A stretch of DNA of 64,000 nucleotides from a virus. Shown here piece after piece: positions 1 through 60,680 of this stretch. The stretch covers positions 35,520 through 99,519 of IMG/VR virus record IMGVR_UViG_3300001282_000007, one strand, 5' to 3'. How positions within the stretch are numbered: the stretch's first letter is position 1; each line of letters opens with the position of its first letter. A program made the position numbers and the translations under genes. Below the pieces are notes generated by a model that worked only from the letters and a program-made list of their open reading frames with translations, did not search any database and was not told the origin of the DNA.

Positions 1-964
1 ACTGAATATCCCACTGATCACCAAATGTCAGGGCCCATTCATTGCAGGCAGTGTTCCACATCATATCGCTGTGTGCCCGGAGCTTCTGCTTTTTAAAACC
101 TGCTGCAAGTAGTCCAGCAAGATCGGGTCGAACTCGGTGATCGTGACCCACCAAAATATCTTCACGGCTAACACTGTAGTGAAGAGCAGGACGAACACCA
201 CGCCAAGACTCAACAACCCGTTGCGCACGAGGGTCCGCAGGCGTGATGTATTCTCCGGAGTTGATCCAGTGATGGTGTATGTCCAGCACAAGAGCCACAT
301 GCTCAGCCACAAGTAAAGTAGAATCGATGCCATTTGTCATTTCGTCATTTTCGATGGAGATAAGATTCCTGGCCTCGGAACTGAGGCGACCCAAGGTCTT
401 TAGGAATTTAGTGACACCACCTTTGCCACTTAAATGTACATTTATCTTGAATCCCGAGTCATGCCAACTTTTTCCATAGCCCATCCAGCGGGCCATGTCT
501 GCATGATACTCAAATTCCAGGATACTGCGTTCCACAATCACGTCATGCTCGCTGGCCAGCACACAAAACTGTCCGGGATGGAAGCTGAGTCGCACACCCA
601 GTCTGCGGGCAGTTTCGCCCACAGGAGCAAAGATCCGTTCACAGTGATCTTGTATCTCTTTGCGCTGCCACCAGTCGATCCATGAAGGTTCAGTATAGCC
701 TTGCAGCATTTCTGAACCCAGCCGTACCATTCTACGACCTTCAGGCAGGGTAGCCACTCGTTCAATCATGCGAACTGCTGCTGTGGCATTGTGATTCATT
801 ATGTCCCATTGCCGCTGTTCAGCTTCATCCTTGTGCTCTCGAAGCCAGCGCATGGTGGTTGATCGGCCGTTTAGTTCACGGTCCACAGCATTGACTTTCA
901 TGCCGCCGCATTCGGACGGATCATTGAGCCATTTGCAACAAAAACCAATTTGGGGTATAGTCAT
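1..964 (-). CDS. uvsE: UV-damage endonuclease UvsE/UvdE (partial, 3' end outside window)
   Basis: UV-damage endonucleases nick DNA 5' of pyrimidine dimers and other lesions and start excision repair. Translating the minus strand from the ATG at 964 gives 321 residues without a stop, so the C-terminus lies beyond the left edge. Family signatures are in order: SFHPGQF (about 127-133), INVHLSGKGG (174-183), SIENDE (203-208), LDIHHHW (227-233) and RAHSD (296-300). These His/Glu/Asp residues are the expected metal ligands of the TIM-barrel. The start lies 1 nt past the stop of the next gene upstream, so the two are co-transcribed. Such repair would protect phage DNA in sunlit water; that ecology is inference. 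Confidence 0.9.
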   Translation of the reverse strand, partial: MTIPQIGFCCKWLNDPSECGGMKVNAVDRELNGRSTTMRWLREHKDEAEQRQWDIMNHNATAAVRMIERVATLPEGRRMVRLGSEMLQGYTEPSWIDWWQRKEIQDHCERIFAPVGETARRLGVRLSFHPGQFCVLASEHDVIVERSILEFEYHADMARWMGYGKSWHDSGFKINVHLSGKGGVTKFLKTLGRLSSEARNLISIENDEMTNGIDSTLLVAEHVALVLDIHHHWINSGEYITPADPRAQRVVESWRGVRPALHYSVSREDILVGHDHRVRPDLAGLLAAGFKKQKLRAHSDMMWNTACNEWALTFGDQWDIQ

Positions 965-17359: not shown

Positions 17360-18241
17360 TTAGAAGTTGACTTCTAGACCAGCACCAAATTTCTGTACAT
17401 TGGTTGCAGAATCTTCTTTGACATAACGTGCATGAACCAAAGTGTTCTTGCTCAGTGCATAAGATGCGCCAACATTGTAGGCCTTGACAGTGTCATTCTC
17501 ACCGTAGCCAGCAAGCAAAGTCACTGCACCAACAGCCTGGTTAACACCAACTGATTTACCAGTGGTTGATGCACCAGATACTTTGTCTTCAGAATACATC
17601 GCAAATACTTTTGTGCCAGATGCCAGAGCTAGTCTAGCACCAACGATGCCTGAATAGCTGTTGGTACCAGTGGTCAAACGAGCAGCAGTTGCGCTCACAG
17701 CACCTACAGTGTACTCAACACTGCTGGCTTGTGATTCTGTAGTGCCACCAGCAACTTCACTGTTGGCAATTGCATACGTAGCAGAAAGTCCAGCAACAGG
17801 CTTGGCAGTCAAGAACACTGCATTTTGCAAACGTGAACCTTGTGCAGCATGAATAACTGCGGTGCTGGAACCAAAAGCATTGCCCATGGCGTCATAGTTG
17901 TCAAGTGTGCGAGCAATGGTGTGTTTGTCACGACCCATGGCCACGGAACCCAACTTGTGAGACAAGCCAACAACAGCAGTGCGGTCACCCAGTGTGGTTG
18001 CTGCAGGAGCGTCGCCACCGTAGCCAGTTTCAAGCACAACGCCAGCAGTGATGCCGCCAGCAAGTGCTTCTGTGGCTTTGATACCGAAACGGCTGGAATC
18101 GTTTGTCAACGCGGTTACACCTTCGGCGGTGCCGGTCTTGGTGTTTTCTTGGTACACACGAGCTTTACCGTAAACGGTGGCGTCAGCTTGTGCTAGGGAG
18201 GCGGCCAATGCTAGGGCCATTACTAAAGCATATTTCTTCAT
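17360..18241 (-). CDS. Outer-membrane porin, Gram-negative (betaproteobacterial-type)
   Basis: Trimeric porins form 16-strand diffusion channels. The 293-aa product has a signal peptide (1-19, cleavage after AQA), the strand VYGKARVYQE at the mature N-terminus, the porin signature SRFGIKATEALAGGITAG (about 51-68), the DRTAVVGLSHKLGSVAMGR segment, alternating aromatic/polar strands and a C-terminal FGAGLEVNF ending in Phe, the BAM recognition signal. It is shorter than the usual 330-380 aa, mostly by loop trimming. A strong terminator follows, and AAGGA precedes the ATG. This is a rare cargo for a phage, and it argues for a Gram-negative host. Confidence 0.85.
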   Translation of the reverse strand: MKKYALVMALALAASLAQADATVYGKARVYQENTKTGTAEGVTALTNDSSRFGIKATEALAGGITAGVVLETGYGGDAPAATTLGDRTAVVGLSHKLGSVAMGRDKHTIARTLDNYDAMGNAFGSSTAVIHAAQGSRLQNAVFLTAKPVAGLSATYAIANSEVAGGTTESQASSVEYTVGAVSATAARLTTGTNSYSGIVGARLALASGTKVFAMYSEDKVSGASTTGKSVGVNQAVGAVTLLAGYGENDTVKAYNVGASYALSKNTLVHARYVKEDSATNVQKFGAGLEVNF

Positions 18242-34299: not shown

Positions 34300-35106
34300 T
34301 CAAAATCTTTGATCAAAAGTTTTTAAGTGTTGATCCACAATGTTCCATATCTGACAGGTGGATGTAGGATAATTATTATTATCAAACAACTCTCCATCAA
34401 ATATTCCAATGGACTTTGACAACAAACTATTGATTAATGCCTGAGATATTTCATTACTAAAAAATTCAATATTGTTTCCTGCAATTGCGGCATGTGCCAA
34501 GTGTTTGCATTCTTTGTAATATTGCCATCCTTGGTTTCTAGTTAAAAATTCTTCCAATAAATCACTTAGCTCCCGGTCGGGTACGAATGTTATTTCTAAA
34601 AAATTGGCCAGGCGATACAGTTCATTATAAAATTCCACTAGATCAAACAAACTTTCCATGTTAAATTCAAAAACTACTGCGTCGGGCCAGCGCCAATTAT
34701 CTGGCAAAGAATATCCATCAACAGTTGAATTAAATTTAGCATACCACTCATTTCTAAGTTTTACAGGACTATGTCTCACTGATTCTGGGGTTAGTTTTAT
34801 TTTTTTTTCTAAAGGTATATCGCCGGCTCGGCTCATGACATTGATTTGATATATCCAGTTGGCCCAGTCCTGACTAATGTTGATTCTAACTACCTTGGTT
34901 GGAGTATTTTGTGATATATCAAACTCAGTATAATGTGCAGCTTCTACTATCCTGTGCGCCATGTAATTTTTGTCATTGCGAATTTGATGGCAAGATCCGT
35001 GCTCAGTAAAAATATTATGTACCCTTGGACCCTTGTGTAGCCAGGTGTTTATCACGTATTCTAAAAAATGTCCATGGCTTCCAGAAAAAAAATCTAGGTA
35101 TATCAT
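34300..35106 (-). CDS. P-loop-like protein, 268 aa (possible sulfotransferase-like)
   Basis: The start IYLDFFSGSHGHFLEYVIN contains GSHGHF, like the 5'-phosphosulfate loop of sulfotransferases, and a conserved-looking RINISQDWANW segment comes near 74-84. The rest is AT-rich in codon use. It overlaps the helicase gene by 4 nt. The family call is tentative; no substrate is indicated. Confidence 0.5.
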   Translation of the reverse strand: MIYLDFFSGSHGHFLEYVINTWLHKGPRVHNIFTEHGSCHQIRNDKNYMAHRIVEAAHYTEFDISQNTPTKVVRINISQDWANWIYQINVMSRAGDIPLEKKIKLTPESVRHSPVKLRNEWYAKFNSTVDGYSLPDNWRWPDAVVFEFNMESLFDLVEFYNELYRLANFLEITFVPDRELSDLLEEFLTRNQGWQYYKECKHLAHAAIAGNNIEFFSNEISQALINSLLSKSIGIFDGELFDNNNYPTSTCQIWNIVDQHLKTFDQRF

Positions 35107-36539
35107 GCAGCTTTGATTTGCCCCAGCAACTGCTTGAGTTTGTTGCTTTGTACATCTGCTGTGACTCGACCACTCAAAGGATCATGACCGTCTCGTGGTC
35201 TGGGCTTTTCCCAGGGCTGCGAACTACTGCCGCTGTCAGCAGGCGCGACTTGACTGCGGGCCTTAATTGAGTCCATGATTGAACTTTGTGGTTTGTTATG
35301 ACCGTTTTCGTCCCCACCTTCATCAGTAATGCGCATGGTTTCAATGTTGTACTCCAAATCAATTTTTTGACCAACGCCGGTCGAGCTTCGAGATTTCATA
35401 CACTGTATCTGATACTTGCCACGCTCTTTCATGGAGCGACTGGTAAAGATACCAAACACATTGTCTGCTGTGTTGATTTTACTGATACCACCTGAAATGT
35501 GGCTGTGATCAAATTCCATTTCTTCCACTGCTGATCTGTTCAACTGACTTGCTGTTACCAACAACACGCCCAGTTCCTTAGCCAGGTTACGCAGCTCTTC
35601 CGATACATACTTGTCTTTCACAAACAAGTCATTGGGACTAACTTTAGCACTCACAGGCATGACCAAGTCAAGATAATCCACCATCACAAAGTCCACTTTG
35701 ATGCCTGTTTGTATCTGTACTTCTTTTAGATATGCACGGATATCATTCACATTGCTCTGTGCCGGCAAGCCTTTCACACGATACTGTCCGGATTTCTTGG
35801 CCACCATCTTGACCTTGAGTTCTGTTGAGTCAATGTCACGGCGTATTTCTTTGGTGCTCATGTTTGTGAGCATGGCGTCTGTTCTCAAACTTGTGAGTTC
35901 TTCTGATAGTTCCAGTGTGATATACACGCCACTCATGCCCTGCTGCAACCAGTTCAGGGCAATGTTCATCATGACTAAGGATTTACCCGAGCCCGAACCA
36001 CCTGCAAAGATGTTGAGTTCACCACGACTGAATCCACCATACAGCAGTCGATCCATTTGCGGCCAACCTGTGCTAACTTGTCCACCTGAATTGAAATACT
36101 TGTTGATCCTGGCTGCTGGATCTGCAAAGTAATCTGTACCCATGTCCTTGGTCAGGGAAATCTGCACAGCATCCTTGATCAGTTTTTCCACAGGATCATA
36201 GTCGCCTTTTTCCAGCAAGTCTGCTGCTTTTAGAATGGCACGTTCTAGTTCCTGGCGTCGTGTAAATGCTTCAAACTCAGTCATGAACCAGTCATAGTGA
36301 CCTTCGTTCAAGTCTGGCACTGCATTCAACTTGATGCCTGTGGCCGCAGCGATCTGTGCTCGATCTGGCAGAGTCTTGAACTGTTCTGAATGCTCCTTGA
36401 TAAACGCCGCAGCGGTTCTTAGATTGCGATCAAAATTTTCTGGATTGTAGATGTTCTGCACCCGAACGTAGCTGGCGGCGTCCTCCAGCATCATTTCTAG
36501 GAATAGTTTCTGAACATCAGTGCTGTAGTCTTTTAACAA
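35103..36539 (-). CDS. Replicative DNA helicase, DnaB/T4 gp41-like
   Basis: The hexameric 5'-3' helicase of the phage replisome. The RecA-like core has Walker A GGSGSGKS (about residue 184 from the chosen start), a FVMVDYLDL Walker B, TASQLNRS (motif H3-like) and a GGISKINTAD loop. The N-terminal helical domain is intact. The start is not certain: TTG at 36539 with CGAAAG upstream is chosen, while TTG at 36590 overlaps the primase by 74 nt and ATG at 36494 cuts the first helix. Primase and helicase genes lie side by side as in T4-like phages. Confidence 0.9.
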   Translation of the reverse strand: MLKDYSTDVQKLFLEMMLEDAASYVRVQNIYNPENFDRNLRTAAAFIKEHSEQFKTLPDRAQIAAATGIKLNAVPDLNEGHYDWFMTEFEAFTRRQELERAILKAADLLEKGDYDPVEKLIKDAVQISLTKDMGTDYFADPAARINKYFNSGGQVSTGWPQMDRLLYGGFSRGELNIFAGGSGSGKSLVMMNIALNWLQQGMSGVYITLELSEELTSLRTDAMLTNMSTKEIRRDIDSTELKVKMVAKKSGQYRVKGLPAQSNVNDIRAYLKEVQIQTGIKVDFVMVDYLDLVMPVSAKVSPNDLFVKDKYVSEELRNLAKELGVLLVTASQLNRSAVEEMEFDHSHISGGISKINTADNVFGIFTSRSMKERGKYQIQCMKSRSSTGVGQKIDLEYNIETMRITDEGGDENGHNKPQSSIMDSIKARSQVAPADSGSSSQPWEKPRPRDGHDPLSGRVTADVQSNKLKQLLGQIKAA

Positions 36540-37497
36540 GTTGTTTCTTTCGTAATTCAATTTTGATCTTGGATGTTTCTCTAGCGTCAATTATAGTTAG
36601 CAATGTGCCCAGGCGCCCATACAGTTTGACAGCATCATTCACATCCTTGACTTCCCGGGGCCATGCGGGCATGCTCACAGCCCAGCCCAGTTCCACAGCA
36701 CGATCCACCAGTTCCATACCTGCTAGATCTTGATCGGGTACCACTGTGATTTCTCGACCAAGATTGCGAATCAATCTAGCTTGAGCATCACTTATGGTGT
36801 TGTGCATCAAGGCAACACCGCCAATGCTAAGTGCATCAAAGATACCTTCAGTCACAATCACCTGAGTCCAGTCAGGACGCAACAGGTCTGTGCCAAACAC
36901 ATAGCCTGGCTGCATGTCATTGATGTAGCGTGGATTACGATCATCCAGAAATCTAACAGTGTGTCCCACAATGCTGTTGTGATGTGTGAATGGTATGATC
37001 ACTTGATCACGGGCGGGCCAGGCTTCTGGATTTGTTTGTGTCATCACAGGATAATCATCTGGCACACATCTTGATCTCACATAGTCGCGATGCAGTCCTG
37101 TGCTACCAATCAGTTCAGCGAATGGCGGCAGGTCTCGTTCTTCAAACTTGATATCTGCTAGAATATCCACGGTGCGTTGTCTATCATCTAGAATGCCGTG
37201 TATGCTCCGGTGCCGCAGACTTTCAAGATTCAACATTTCTATTTCACGTTCGGGCACACCCATCCAGCTCAAGAGCCTGCGGGCCTTGAAACTTACAGTA
37301 CGGCCAAGGATAAAGCTAGCGGTGTAGTTGCAGTTGAAGCAGTGATAACTCCAGCCCTGTTCAGATGTTTTGATTCCGCCGCGGCTTCTGCGATCTGGTG
37401 TGTCGCCGTTGTGTTCACAACACACAGCATTAAAACTGATCCACCCCGATGCACTAGATTTTCGTTTGGCGGGTAAGTATCCAAGAATGTCGAGCAT
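36517..37497 (-). CDS. DNA primase, DnaG/T4 gp61-like
   Basis: The 326-aa protein has an N-terminal zinc ribbon with CCEH (near 26-29) and CFNC (53-56), an RNA-polymerase-type middle, and a TOPRIM domain with the Glu in VIVTEGIFDALS (near 210) and the DxD-type PDQDLAG (near 248). It makes RNA primers for the lagging strand with the adjacent helicase. The Toprim is complete. Confidence 0.9.
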   Translation of the reverse strand: MLDILGYLPAKRKSSASGWISFNAVCCEHNGDTPDRRSRGGIKTSEQGWSYHCFNCNYTASFILGRTVSFKARRLLSWMGVPEREIEMLNLESLRHRSIHGILDDRQRTVDILADIKFEERDLPPFAELIGSTGLHRDYVRSRCVPDDYPVMTQTNPEAWPARDQVIIPFTHHNSIVGHTVRFLDDRNPRYINDMQPGYVFGTDLLRPDWTQVIVTEGIFDALSIGGVALMHNTISDAQARLIRNLGREITVVPDQDLAGMELVDRAVELGWAVSMPAWPREVKDVNDAVKLYGRLGTLLTIIDARETSKIKIELRKKQLVKRLQH

Positions 37498-39368: not shown

Positions 39369-39746
39369 ATGGGCAAAGACTTATTTCAAAAACTAGCTGA
39401 CAAATATCCGTTTATTACCTTGTGCGTTTACGCCAGCAATGAATATGTGGGGATTGTGCAAAACAGAGATGATGTTATCACAACCATCTATGACTTTGGA
39501 ACTGTCAAAGATTCAGAACAAAAACGACGTTATCTTGATCTGGCCAACACCTGGTGGTGGGAAAGCAACAGAAGTATTCCGATCAACATATTCCTGCGTG
39601 GAGAATGGGATGAATTTCGTCTGTGCCTTCGCACATTTGTCAACAAAGATCTGGAAATCTTGCACGGTCCTGTGTGCAGCCTAAATGACATTGCCCGTAG
39701 AAAAGGCAAGAGAAAATCTATTACTCTTGTGAGACGCCTAGACTAA
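39369..39746 (+). CDS. Hypothetical protein, 125 aa
   Basis: A small alpha/beta protein; N-terminal LFQKLADKYPFITLCVYASNEYVGIVQN and a C-terminal basic tail (ARRKGKRKSITLVRRL). Similar proteins with a 'YASNEYVGI' strand are common in T4-like phages; the function is unknown. It is one of the few plus-strand genes here and overlaps the convergent mini-DnaE gene by 9 nt. Confidence 0.68.
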   Translation: MGKDLFQKLADKYPFITLCVYASNEYVGIVQNRDDVITTIYDFGTVKDSEQKRRYLDLANTWWWESNRSIPINIFLRGEWDEFRLCLRTFVNKDLEILHGPVCSLNDIARRKGKRKSITLVRRLD

Positions 39747-40298
39747 TAGATTCATGTGCAAGGCTACCAGAGCCGCATAACCTAGAGCATGTGCTTTCTT
39801 GAATGTGTAGCCTCGACTGGTATCGCCATCCCAGACTGAATCAAACACCGTGGGCCAATCTAACCCTTGTAGGTGTGCCTTGCCTGGGCGTATGATTGAT
39901 ATAAATGCTGCCATTCTAGGTATACTGTCAGGTCTCATGGTCGCCAGCAAGTGTCCATAATTGCCCACGTGAACCAACTGCTTGGCCCATTCAGGATCTT
40001 GCCATAGTCTTGCCCATGGTGGTGTGGCTGCAAGCACAGCGTCGTAGTGCTCGGGACTCTGTATCAACTGATACACACTCATGTTCAAGAAGTCCAGTTT
40101 GAAATAGCCACGAGCTTCTGCTGACTCGTAGTCTATGGCAGCACAGTTATTCACAGGATCTTGTGGAATGTCTGTGACATACACTCCTGAATTGTGACGT
40201 CTAGGTCTACCATCTGTGATCTGCCGTGCAGGGGTGTGCTGAATCAGTTTCAGTACATGTTCGCGATCAGCAAAGTCAATGTCAATGTCTGCGCTCAT
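39738..40298 (-). CDS. Miniature DnaE/PolC-like protein, 186 aa
   Basis: The ATG at 40298 overlaps the upstream stop. Three blocks match bacterial DNA polymerase III alpha in order: ADIDIDFADR (3-12, catalytic Asp-x-Asp of the palm), SGVYVTDIPQDPV...GYFKLDFLNMSVYQLI (near 38-80, the KFDFLGL palm/fingers block), IRPGKAHLQG (near 136-145, the FRPGPLQSG block) and GYTFKKAHALGYAA (near 163-176, the YGFNKSHS block). Intervening parts, the exonuclease and clamp-binding domains are missing. It may be a non-catalytic relative or a compact nucleotidyltransferase. Homology is inferred from these blocks. Confidence 0.68.
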   Translation of the reverse strand: MSADIDIDFADREHVLKLIQHTPARQITDGRPRRHNSGVYVTDIPQDPVNNCAAIDYESAEARGYFKLDFLNMSVYQLIQSPEHYDAVLAATPPWARLWQDPEWAKQLVHVGNYGHLLATMRPDSIPRMAAFISIIRPGKAHLQGLDWPTVFDSVWDGDTSRGYTFKKAHALGYAALVALHMNLLV

Positions 40299-40637: not shown

Positions 40638-41312
40638 TTACCATCCTGCTTGTTTCAAAATATTCTTGGCATATGCCTGATCCTGGGGTCTATCCTGAAA
40701 TTGCTTTTGCCAGGCATCGCTGTCAATATAGGGCCATATCATAGCAACCTGTGTGGCATCTAGTTCGCTTAGAAACTTCTGTCCCGATTCTGAATTGTAA
40801 ATTACCCAGGCACTTATTCTACCTGCGGTCACAGCATAGCACAGGACATTGGCATTGCCATATCTCATGCAATCATGTGCAGGGCTGGTGTTTTTTTCTG
40901 ACCAGTCTATGCCAAACTCTATGGCTCGTGTGAGTGCATCATCCACGGCTTCTACTTTCAGGTGATCTACTAGATATTCTGTGTACACCTTGTCACTGCA
41001 CCAGTGGTCAATCTTGCGATTGTGTTTCAACAACCAGGCCATGAATCTGTCTGGGTTGATCACTCTGGTGTTCACACAGTAGTGCCCAAACTTCACAAAT
41101 GCACGATAGTAACTGCTTTCACAAAAGGTATCGTGTGTTTTGTTTCTGGCTGATCCTGCCATGCTTTCATAAAAGCGAATGTAGGCCTGAAATCCCAGTC
41201 TTGGACCCGGCTCGTCACGCTCGCGACGACGACGTTTGGGTTCGCACATGTGCGCTTGTATAGATGTTTCTCTCACAAACTCTTTTTTGCAATATTCGCA
41301 CACATGGGTCAT
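40638..41312 (-). CDS. Zinc-finger-containing hypothetical protein, 224 aa
   Basis: An N-terminal C2H2-type finger (VCEYCKKEFVRETSIQAHMC, about 4-23) is followed by an Arg/Glu-rich basic stretch (KRRRRERDE). The remaining 190 residues are a helical domain with several Trp and Cys residues and no recognised fold. A single zinc finger plus basic stretch suggests nucleic-acid binding, as a possible regulator. Similar proteins occur in T4-like cyanophages. Confidence 0.66.
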   Translation of the reverse strand: MTHVCEYCKKEFVRETSIQAHMCEPKRRRRERDEPGPRLGFQAYIRFYESMAGSARNKTHDTFCESSYYRAFVKFGHYCVNTRVINPDRFMAWLLKHNRKIDHWCSDKVYTEYLVDHLKVEAVDDALTRAIEFGIDWSEKNTSPAHDCMRYGNANVLCYAVTAGRISAWVIYNSESGQKFLSELDATQVAMIWPYIDSDAWQKQFQDRPQDQAYAKNILKQAGW

Positions 41313-42695: not shown

Positions 42696-44165
42696 TTATT
42701 TGATCTTCATCCACTCTAGTTTCTCTGCTGAGAATGGATAGTTGGCTTCCTTATAAAAGGCCTTGCGCTTGGTCAGATGACGCTTGGCAAACTTGCATGT
42801 GCTGGTTATGTCCCAGATTTCCACATGATCTTTGTCTTCGGCTTTTCTAATACCGCGTCCAATACTCTGTATCACACGCACAAAGCTCTTGCCTGGCTCT
42901 ACCAGCACAAGATTAAAGATGCGTGGTATGTTGATACCCACCGCAGCCACACCATAAGTGGCCACAATAATCTTGTCAGTGGCATCGGCTACCTGATTGT
43001 ATTCGTCCTGGCGGGTTTTTGACTTGGTAGCACCAGACACAAACACTGCCTTGTCGCCCAGGCGTTCTACCAGTTGTCGTCCACATTCAGTCCTGTCTAC
43101 CAACACCAGAGTATTGCCTGTTTCGTTTACCTTGCGTATCAGTTCTGCCATGGTGTCCAGTCTTCCGGACTCTTCCAGCAGGTACTTGAGCTCGCTTTGA
43201 TAGTCAGCGTATTCCACATGATCCACCAGTTGCACAATGTTCACATGGCACTGTGCTAGGACGCCTGCGTCTTGTAGTGTGCTGGCACTGAGTCGACTGA
43301 CCACAGGACCCAGGCTGACCAACAGGGCCTGGCTTTCAAACAGTTCTTTTGGCACTGTCCCGGTTAGTCCCCATCTCAAGGGAATCTGACTCATGGCTCC
43401 GGTCAGCAGGGTCTTGAGTGCATCAGCCTTGGCCATGTGAACCTCGTCCACAATCACACACACCACATCTTGTATAAACTCATGAATGGTTATTTCTGCT
43501 TCACCAGTCTTGGTCAGCTTCATCATGTTGTTGAGACTCTGCCAGGTGCATATGGTATGCTGACGATTGTATTCTTTTCTGTCGCCAAAATACACGCCCA
43601 CATCCAGTCCCATGTTGATGTAGTCTGCCTCGGTCTGCGTTACTAGACTCTTGTTGGGCACAATCACAATACTTCGACCATAGGCACTGACAGCATCACT
43701 CAAGGCTGCTGTGATAATGGTCTTGCCTGCTCCGGTGGCCACTTCTTGTATGCACTGCGGATTGGTCAGAAACTTGTTGATAATTTCCACTTGATAGTCA
43801 CGCAGCACCATGGGCTGGCCAGCAGCTGGATGGGTTTTGGGCCACAGCACATGACTGTAATGATTTTCTGACACTGCTGCAAAGTCAAAAGAAGTGGCAT
43901 ACTCACGCTGATCATCTAGTACTGGACTATAGTCGAACTTGTCAAGTATGGGCATGATCTCGGGCAAGAGATTCACATAGGTGCTGCCACCCAGTTGGAA
44001 GTAGGCAATCTTGCCGTCCCATCGGCCCAGCCGTACCGCAGGCAGATAACGTGCTGCTGGATTCTCATACTTGAATGCCGTGACCAGAGCCTTGCGGCAA
44101 TCTAGATCAAGTCCTTCTATCTTGATGTTGACTTCATCTCGAATTACTATAGTGCATTGTTTCAT
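42696..44165 (-). CDS. uvsW: UvsW-like SF2 DNA helicase
   Basis: UvsW unwinds branched DNA and R-loops and drives the switch to recombination-dependent replication. The 489-aa protein has Walker A TGAGKT (144-149), Walker B VDEVH (near 238), motif III GLTGT, motif IV/V parts and motif VI QSIGRGIRKAEDK (near 445), preceded by an N-terminal domain of about 110 residues as in T4 UvsW. Complete. It overlaps the radical SAM gene by 32 nt. Confidence 0.92.
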   Translation of the reverse strand: MKQCTIVIRDEVNIKIEGLDLDCRKALVTAFKYENPAARYLPAVRLGRWDGKIAYFQLGGSTYVNLLPEIMPILDKFDYSPVLDDQREYATSFDFAAVSENHYSHVLWPKTHPAAGQPMVLRDYQVEIINKFLTNPQCIQEVATGAGKTIITAALSDAVSAYGRSIVIVPNKSLVTQTEADYINMGLDVGVYFGDRKEYNRQHTICTWQSLNNMMKLTKTGEAEITIHEFIQDVVCVIVDEVHMAKADALKTLLTGAMSQIPLRWGLTGTVPKELFESQALLVSLGPVVSRLSASTLQDAGVLAQCHVNIVQLVDHVEYADYQSELKYLLEESGRLDTMAELIRKVNETGNTLVLVDRTECGRQLVERLGDKAVFVSGATKSKTRQDEYNQVADATDKIIVATYGVAAVGINIPRIFNLVLVEPGKSFVRVIQSIGRGIRKAEDKDHVEIWDITSTCKFAKRHLTKRKAFYKEANYPFSAEKLEWMKIK

Positions 44166-58984: not shown

Positions 58985-59437
58985 TCACACTTGAATATCT
59001 TCCATGCCGGCTGCTCGTAGTCTAACAATGTGGCCCAGCATGAAGTTCTTGCTTTCTAGTGCTTTCATGATACCCAGCCAGCGATTACGCAGCAGGGCTA
59101 CTTCATTGATAATGGTTTCAAAGTCAATCACTTCATCTTCGCCGTCCACATACTTTTCAGCATCTCTGCTGCTGAGAGCACGATTGTAACCTTCCAGATA
59201 CTTTTGAAAGTGCTTGCGACGAATCTTGCGTAACTGAATATTCAGCAGATTTAGTACAGCTTCCACTTCCTGAAGCTGGTAGAATCTCTGCTCAGTTATG
59301 CCCGGAAGCAGCTTGATGTTGTTCTCAACGATGCCGCCAATTTTGCAATCTCGTTTGGCATCCGTGAGCTCACGATCATAGTGTGCCATGAAGTCTGGGA
59401 TCTTGCCCAGATCCGCGGCCACTTGACTATACCACAT
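58985..59437 (-). CDS. uvsY: UvsY-like recombination mediator
   Basis: UvsY loads UvsX on gp32-coated ssDNA. The 150-aa sequence has N-terminal helical part, a LRKIRRKHFQKYLEGYNRAL basic stretch and a C-terminal MKALESKNFMLGHIVRLRAAGM block that resembles the T4 UvsY end (IKSRGF...HIQDMRAF). The neighbouring uvsX and gp32 genes support the call. AAGGA precedes the ATG. Confidence 0.72.
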   Translation of the reverse strand: MWYSQVAADLGKIPDFMAHYDRELTDAKRDCKIGGIVENNIKLLPGITEQRFYQLQEVEAVLNLLNIQLRKIRRKHFQKYLEGYNRALSSRDAEKYVDGEDEVIDFETIINEVALLRNRWLGIMKALESKNFMLGHIVRLRAAGMEDIQV

Positions 59438-60680
59438 GTTCCAGTTCCTTTACGAGCCAAGGAAAAATCTTGACCCAACTTGTGCCACGTCTACGATCAG
59501 TTTCATCAAGGAATGTTTTTAATTTCAAAAGCTCGGTACTATTTGGTTGTGATTGAGAATAGTTATGCACAATGCCTTCCATGCACTGCATGGCCAATTG
59601 ATCTTGATCAGTGTCAGTTGGCATAGAATTTAGAATACAATCAAAATCTTGCTTGAACACAGCATTTCCTAAAATATTTGGTACAAGATAACCGGGACCT
59701 GGTGCAACCACACTAAAGAAATGTCCTATCTCACGATGTGATTTCCAGACTTTTATTTTTTCAATCAGTGCAGGCATAGTCTTGATTGTGAGAACACTAA
59801 TAGTTTGATTTATGTGCAGGGTCAACCAAGGCTCTTGTAGCAATCTTTCAAAATTTGCAATCCATTGTTCCACTTTCATTCCGTATCTTGTATACTCTTG
59901 TTCAGGGCCAAGACAATCAATACTACAGGTTAAATCGACTCGTTTGAGCTTGCCACTTGTGACCAAATTTTTAAATCGTTGCACAAACTTTTCTAGTTTT
60001 TTTGAATCTAGCATTAGATTAGTTATGGTACAAAATTCTAGATTAGGATGCTCAGTAGATTCAAAATATTCCAGACAAGTTTCAAGTTCAGGCTGGTAAA
60101 AACCTTCTCCTCCTGCTACAGTAAATCTTACTAGTCCTGTTGAATGTTTTTGCATCCATTCCCAGAATTTTGTTAACATAGCCGAATAGTCTGAGTCAAT
60201 AGGAAAGTATTCTAGAACAACTCCGTTCTTTTCAAATTTACCATGTTTTTTATACTCCTGATTCATTCTTGAGCTTAGATCAGGAGAACAATACAAGCAA
60301 GAAAGATTGCATTGGTTATTGAAAAATACTTCAAGCACAGTTGGCTGAACTACTACTGCTGTGGGGTCTAAATCCAACTCCGGTGGTGATTGATTTGGGA
60401 TCGCAAGATGTCGCATACGATCGCTAGAACCACCACTTTGCTCTATGTCACGGCAATAGTAACAACTGGAATCTTCGGGCCAAAGCCCGTCCAACATCCG
60501 CTTGCGTTCTGATTGCTTTTTTTCAGTATTGTGAAAAGTATCAAATGTCTCCGGAGTCAACTGCCCGTGTCCAGCACGATGGCAACTAGCAGTTACTCCT
60601 TTGTAAAGATACAGAGTACTCCAGTTCCATTTTAACTGGCAGGCTGTTGCAGTCTTGATAGGAAAATATTTGTCGCCCAT
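59427..60680 (-). CDS. Radical SAM enzyme, twitch-like, 417 aa
   Basis: The CxxxCxxC site is C124-C128-C131 in CNLSCLYC. An N-terminal about 110 residues holds Cys 14, 33, 73 and 76 (CYYC), possible auxiliary cluster ligands. AGGEGFYQPE fits the SAM-binding motif. It resembles the enzyme at 44134 in layout, though sequences diverge. TAATG overlap couples it to the acidic 89-aa gene upstream. Substrate unknown: a peptide, tRNA or sugar are options. Confidence 0.8.
   Translation of the reverse strand: MGDKYFPIKTATACQLKWNWSTLYLYKGVTASCHRAGHGQLTPETFDTFHNTEKKQSERKRMLDGLWPEDSSCYYCRDIEQSGGSSDRMRHLAIPNQSPPELDLDPTAVVVQPTVLEVFFNNQCNLSCLYCSPDLSSRMNQEYKKHGKFEKNGVVLEYFPIDSDYSAMLTKFWEWMQKHSTGLVRFTVAGGEGFYQPELETCLEYFESTEHPNLEFCTITNLMLDSKKLEKFVQRFKNLVTSGKLKRVDLTCSIDCLGPEQEYTRYGMKVEQWIANFERLLQEPWLTLHINQTISVLTIKTMPALIEKIKVWKSHREIGHFFSVVAPGPGYLVPNILGNAVFKQDFDCILNSMPTDTDQDQLAMQCMEGIVHNYSQSQPNSTELLKLKTFLDETDRRRGTSWVKIFPWLVKELEHVV

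Follow-up and report, generated by a model that had tools for sequence, protein, structure and literature searches.

The window analysed here, a 64,000-nucleotide stretch of the virus record IMGVR_UViG_3300001282_000007 (positions 35,520 to 99,519 of that record), very probably encodes the C-terminal half of a minimal C-family DNA polymerase that is split over two genes and would act as an auxiliary polymerase together with the product of a second small phage gene, phrog_11127. The gene, an open reading frame (ORF) of 186 amino acids (aa) at 39738..40298 on the minus strand (ATG at 40298, stop at 39738-39740), belongs to the family phrog_11778, and its product, here called the mini protein, corresponds to the half of bacterial DNA polymerase III alpha (Pol III alpha) that holds the catalytic Asp triad, with reduced fingers and a similarity beyond chance. 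The idea of a split enzyme was published in 2021, and the gain is a sharper, testable statement of which two genes are involved, where the cut lies, and which residues take part.

Homology and fold of the catalytic half

The first-pass annotation of this DNA, made from the sequence alone, had noticed Pol III alpha blocks in their usual order within 186 residues, and this was confirmed: DIDIDF (residues 4-9), FKLDFLN (66-72), IRPGK (136-140), and FKKAHALGYA (166-175) follow one another as in the bacterial enzyme. Searches against PHROGs assigned the mini protein to phrog_11778, labelled 'DNA polymerase' (E 1.5e-49), and matched it weakly to phrog_405, the full-length DnaE family (E 9.3e-6), and when the profile of 59 relatives was compared with that of five full-length DnaE sequences, the score was 54.0, none of 100 column-block shuffles exceeding 33.0. 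The match to DnaE families that the first-pass annotation proposed to look for was obtained with these two comparisons. Other searches with the single mini protein sequence did not find DnaE: Pfam gave no family, PDB sequences gave no match, and NCBIfam gave just one weak spurious match.

The AlphaFold model of the mini protein was confident (pLDDT 93.8, pTM 0.83), and in the structural check proposed at the outset its fold matched Pol III alpha and PolC. With Foldseek, the top 11 of 76 matches were all Pol III alpha at a probability of 0.91-1.00, dropping to 0.04 at row 12, and with VIA-align the first 13 entries were all Pol III alpha or PolC (Z 6.5-10.2), the first unrelated entry following at Z 2.8. 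Model residues 1..186 were placed on Escherichia coli DnaE 399..776 (4jom, 5fku, 5fkw) or 398..776 (2hqa), with 173-182 residues aligned onto ~378 residues of the 1160 in full DnaE. The PHP, clamp-binding, OB, and C-terminal domains are absent and the thumb is almost wholly gone, in agreement with the reduced architecture first proposed.

Four blocks carry the correspondence with E. coli K-12 DnaE (D401-F406, K553-L557, R639-P642, and F756-H760). DIDIDF (40272..40289, minus strand), which had been put forward as a possible catalytic Asp pair, does supply it, D4 and D6 being equivalent to D401 and D403. KLD (residues 67-69; 40092..40100, minus strand) corresponds to K553 and the third catalytic Asp, D555, and the two fingers motifs, RPGK (residues 137-140; 39879..39890, minus strand) and FKKAH (residues 166-170; 39789..39803, minus strand), correspond to RPGP 639-642 and FNKSH 756-760. 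We take D401, D403, and D555 to be the catalytic metal ligands of E. coli DnaE, and R362 and K553 to be active-site residues. In an alignment made up of the window protein and 58 non-redundant references (a 59th, identical to the window protein, was left out), D4, D6, D8, H35, K67, D69, R137, P138, K140, F166, K167, and H170 were invariant in 59/59 sequences that diverge down to 27% identity, K168 being kept in 55/59; conservation of the third Asp is quoted from this alignment only. Over a larger set, DxDxD was present in 115 of 116 mini-gene rows, the exception having a different N-terminal reading.

A decaying remnant of a formerly complete phage dnaE, which the protein's length, far short of that of DnaE, might suggest, has a probability close to negligible: dN/dS was 0.07-0.13 (6 comparisons, relatives of 90-94% protein identity), the length is steady at 182-200 aa in 59/59 references, and at least 585 viral stretches, confirmed among 600 listed matches, encode the gene. 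By this substitution pattern, the mini gene is under strong purifying selection. The same constraint bears on a decoy that would titrate host Pol III partners (tau, clamp), one of two functions offered in the first-pass annotation. Homology to host Pol III alpha speaks for a decoy, but the mapped region, DnaE 399-776, leaves out the C-terminal clamp- and tau-binding parts, which presumably lie beyond 776, and a decoy would need neither an invariant catalytic triad nor a co-retained GRGS half (below), so we consider this function very improbable and do not retain it.

A second gene supplying the GRGS half

The phosphate-binding motif GRGS, the other half of the active site, is missing from the mini chain and is given by a second phage gene, so the other function first offered, a stand-alone new small nucleotidyltransferase, is not supported. 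This partner, phrog_11127 (~170-195 aa), corresponds to DnaE ~276-393; it lies outside the window and had been overlooked, as had the paper of 2021 in which a split enzyme was described. A PF07733 match was found in 7/7 cultured jumbo or large phages with the mini gene, always at a separate locus and covering profile positions ~16-98 only; the partner genes of those seven phages encode ~169-182 aa, and some were already annotated 'DNA polymerase III alpha'. GVGRGS, which contains the equivalent of R362, was invariant in 22/22 aligned partner relatives from viral contigs with identities down to 37% (22 of 24 rows; the two omitted are long ORFs that belong to dnaE genes of full-length type with interruptions). 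GxGRGS is, we assume, the nucleotide-phosphate motif of DnaE (R362, S364), and GRGS followed by DxD is a nucleotidyltransferase signature.

Residues 89-192 of the partner model were placed by VIA-align on E. coli DnaE 276..393, with Pol III alpha or PolC in 16/16 rows, and hhalign placed the partner on DnaE 318-392. Its C-terminus lies 26-28 residues past the GRGS-containing motif in 47/51 rows, the other 4/51 not fitting the GRGS pattern used. Since the partner ends at DnaE 393 and the mini protein starts at 399, the two halves lie end to end on DnaE, and the signature is divided between its GRGS and its DxD part.

These residues also bear on the possibility that a DnaE-derived protein without catalysis serves the phage replisome as a structural or accessory subunit. 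Small size, the conserved site of the mini gene beside the gp61 and gp41 genes, and a gp44 clamp-loader gene close to the partner gene in several phages would suit such a subunit; a pseudo-enzyme would, however, be expected to lose some of its active site, and the metal-binding Asp residues and GRGS are all invariant among the aligned relatives of both halves, which makes this explanation improbable.

Co-occurrence of the two halves

No partner was found in the window's own 99,519-bp contig with PF07733 and the partner alignment, because the contig ends ~8.5 kb short of it, as judged from its alignment to a longer viral genome, G001 (261,673 bp). G001 has a mini gene identical to that of the window (254,524-255,087), and the left part of the contig matches it over 19,270 bp at 99.995% identity and over a further 730 bp at 100%, the contig starting at about G001:179,271. 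The G001 partner lies at 170,285-170,875, past the contig's end and ~84 kb from the G001 mini gene.

The mini gene was found in 63 GenBank phage records, including RaK2, 121Q, PBECO4, GAP32, PA5oct, Atu_ph07, XacN1, SCTP-2, and Slicko01 (the union of two listings, each giving the best 60 of 63). Co-occurrence was near-complete, with the partner also present in 62 of the 63 (two Slicko/Slickus partner records were confirmed separately from the main partner listing) and the exception, PP728206, being a 109-kb record; no partner record lacking the mini gene was seen among the best 60 of 73 partner matches. The distance between the halves ranged from ~11 kb (Slicko01) to >180 kb (Atu_ph07).

Several results weigh against a two-gene polymerase. 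The halves were never fused or adjacent in any of the loci fetched for comparison, and among viral contigs, most of which are fragmentary, 5/12 mini-carrying records had the partner and 5/14 partner-carrying records had the mini gene, which is as expected for fragments, though not proof. The AlphaFold model of the partner was moderate only (pLDDT 77.3, pTM 0.60), the first ~88 partner residues match nothing, and with Foldseek alone neither the partner model nor the mini model reached a match at E <= 0.001 (best 1.2e-3 for the latter). In addition, the thumb, which grips template and primer, is nearly all lost.

When a distant partner sequence was used to search for related loci, none was found. 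A scan of genome contigs for cellular homologues returned 12 loci, each from a metagenome-assembled genome and the phyla being unrelated, which we read as putative misbinned phage contigs. Only two ORFs, both full-length DnaE comparators, were matched by both half profiles at E <= 1; at the level of loci, those matched by both profiles were the DnaE comparators plus dnaE genes of full-length type that are interrupted (L157-L161, L163).

As a separate observation, the viral contigs L163 (2872-5229, plus strand), L157, and L160 carry full-length-type dnaE split into several ORFs, and in L163 the fingers have, by eye, an insertion directly after the RPG motif that resembles an intein and includes an HNH-like stretch.

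Relation to known polymerases

Bacterial DnaE and PolC share with the phage pair the Asp triad, K553, and the fingers motifs RPG and F..KxH in the mini protein, and GRGS in the partner; the phage enzyme differs in being two proteins rather than one, in having no PHP, clamp-binding, OB, or C-terminal domain, and in having almost no thumb. Cyanobacterial DnaE is likewise encoded in two pieces, which are rejoined by a split intein, but the cut lies elsewhere. Joining of the phage halves by a split intein was considered and rejected, since neither half (each ~170-200 aa) has room for an intein and neither has an intein-like extension.

A split, minimal Pol III alpha was described in group 2.2 jumbo phages, in which Atu_ph07 was placed, by Iyer et al. 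2021 (PMC7824862), and the partner of Atu_ph07, gp316, had already been called a Pol III alpha subunit in the 2018 Atu_ph07 paper (PMC6102473); Atu_ph07 carries both genes. From the wording of the 2021 paper, we infer that phrog_11778 is the C-terminal unit of that split enzyme. The system described there is the same in having one unit with the catalytic Asp residues and fingers and without other Pol III domains (the window gene), an N-terminal unit on a separate, distant gene, and a genome that also encodes a family-B DNA polymerase; no fundamental difference was seen, the window phage being uncultured. To that description, the present analysis adds structure models, the position of the cut (DnaE 393|399), the conservation of individual residues, and counts of how often the two genes occur together. 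A literature search by title and abstract opening, with most subscription journals and preprints outside its coverage, found no bench test of the split enzyme.

Replication genes and proposed role of the pair

The first-pass annotation had described the replisome as T4-type and the mini protein as something other than its replicase, and both statements stand. The window contains, all on the minus strand, a DnaB-type replicative helicase resembling T4 gp41 (35103..36590; Pfam and PHROGs), a T4 gp61-like DNA primase (phrog_47; 36517..37497), and a UvsW-type helicase (42696..44165; Pfam and PHROGs). The primase, helicase, and UvsW genes lie in the same replication cluster as the mini gene, and across 127 loci, uncorrected for locus length, the primase gene was found in 104, the gp41-like helicase gene in 79, and the UvsW gene in 76. 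A family-B polymerase was not found in the window's own partial 99.5-kb contig but is present in the near-identical G001 (120,018-121,232) and in 12 of 13 records searched, comprising 7/7 named phages and 5/5 large viral contigs including G001. Since this polymerase is also present, the split Pol III alpha would be a second polymerase.

In the mechanism that we propose, the two proteins would pair as a heterodimer that rebuilds the polymerase palm around one composite active site, to which the partner chain would contribute the R362 and S364 equivalents and the mini chain the Asp triad, the K553 equivalent, and the fingers. This site would bind Mg2+ and deoxynucleoside triphosphate (dNTP) and extend DNA, and the pair would serve beside the family-B replicase as an auxiliary polymerase in repair, gap filling, or synthesis of one strand; the exact task is the least certain part of the explanation. 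Without a thumb, PHP, or clamp-binding part, the enzyme would have low processivity if phage replisome proteins did not tether it. That the heterodimer, assembled in trans from the products of genes tens to hundreds of kilobases apart, is a template-directed second polymerase, smaller than any other known C-family polymerase and perhaps resembling their ancestral form, is a proposition for which we see the chances as even.

The two halves might instead be an active nucleotidyltransferase other than a template-directed DNA polymerase, serving for example in terminal addition or in modification of nucleic-acid ends or nucleotides. Such an enzyme would account for catalytic residues being kept despite the loss of the thumb and of most parts that grip DNA (173-182 residues standing for ~378 of DnaE), and the phage already has another polymerase; nevertheless, RP and FKxxH in the fingers do not vary, and the position of the mini gene in a uvsW-primase-helicase cluster fits DNA synthesis, so we regard non-templated activity as unlikely. 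If the pair is active, it would be a polymerase whose active site is shared out over two separately encoded proteins of ~360-380 residues in all. It would then offer a tractable minimal C-family enzyme and help account for the retention of a bacterial-type polymerase core, next to a family-B replicase, in T4-type giant phages.

Adjacent genes and other features of the window

The mini gene has two conserved neighbours. A convergent gene of unknown function, phrog_11637 (39369..39746, plus strand), overlaps the mini-polymerase stop with its 3' end and is the immediate downstream neighbour in 109 of the 117 loci that have room for it; this conserved position suggests a possible functional link with the polymerase half. 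Upstream, a phrog_11058 gene (40638..41312, minus strand), whose product has one C2H2-like zinc finger near its N-terminus by a weak Pfam match, lies within ~1.5 kb in 100/109 loci with room.

A radical SAM protein (PF04055; 44134-45306, minus strand) is encoded directly beside uvsW, and the ORF at 59427-60680 resembles a radical SAM protein by eye, with no Pfam match at E <= 0.001. Elsewhere, the minus strand of the window encodes a ClpX-like unfoldase with a C4 zinc finger (PF06689, PF07724; 7779-9047), an SPFH/Band 7 prohibitin-like protein (PF01145; 11634-12437), and an outer-membrane porin of Gram-negative type (PF13609, E 8.6e-24; 17360-18241) with a signal-peptide-like start, possibly a host-derived surface protein.
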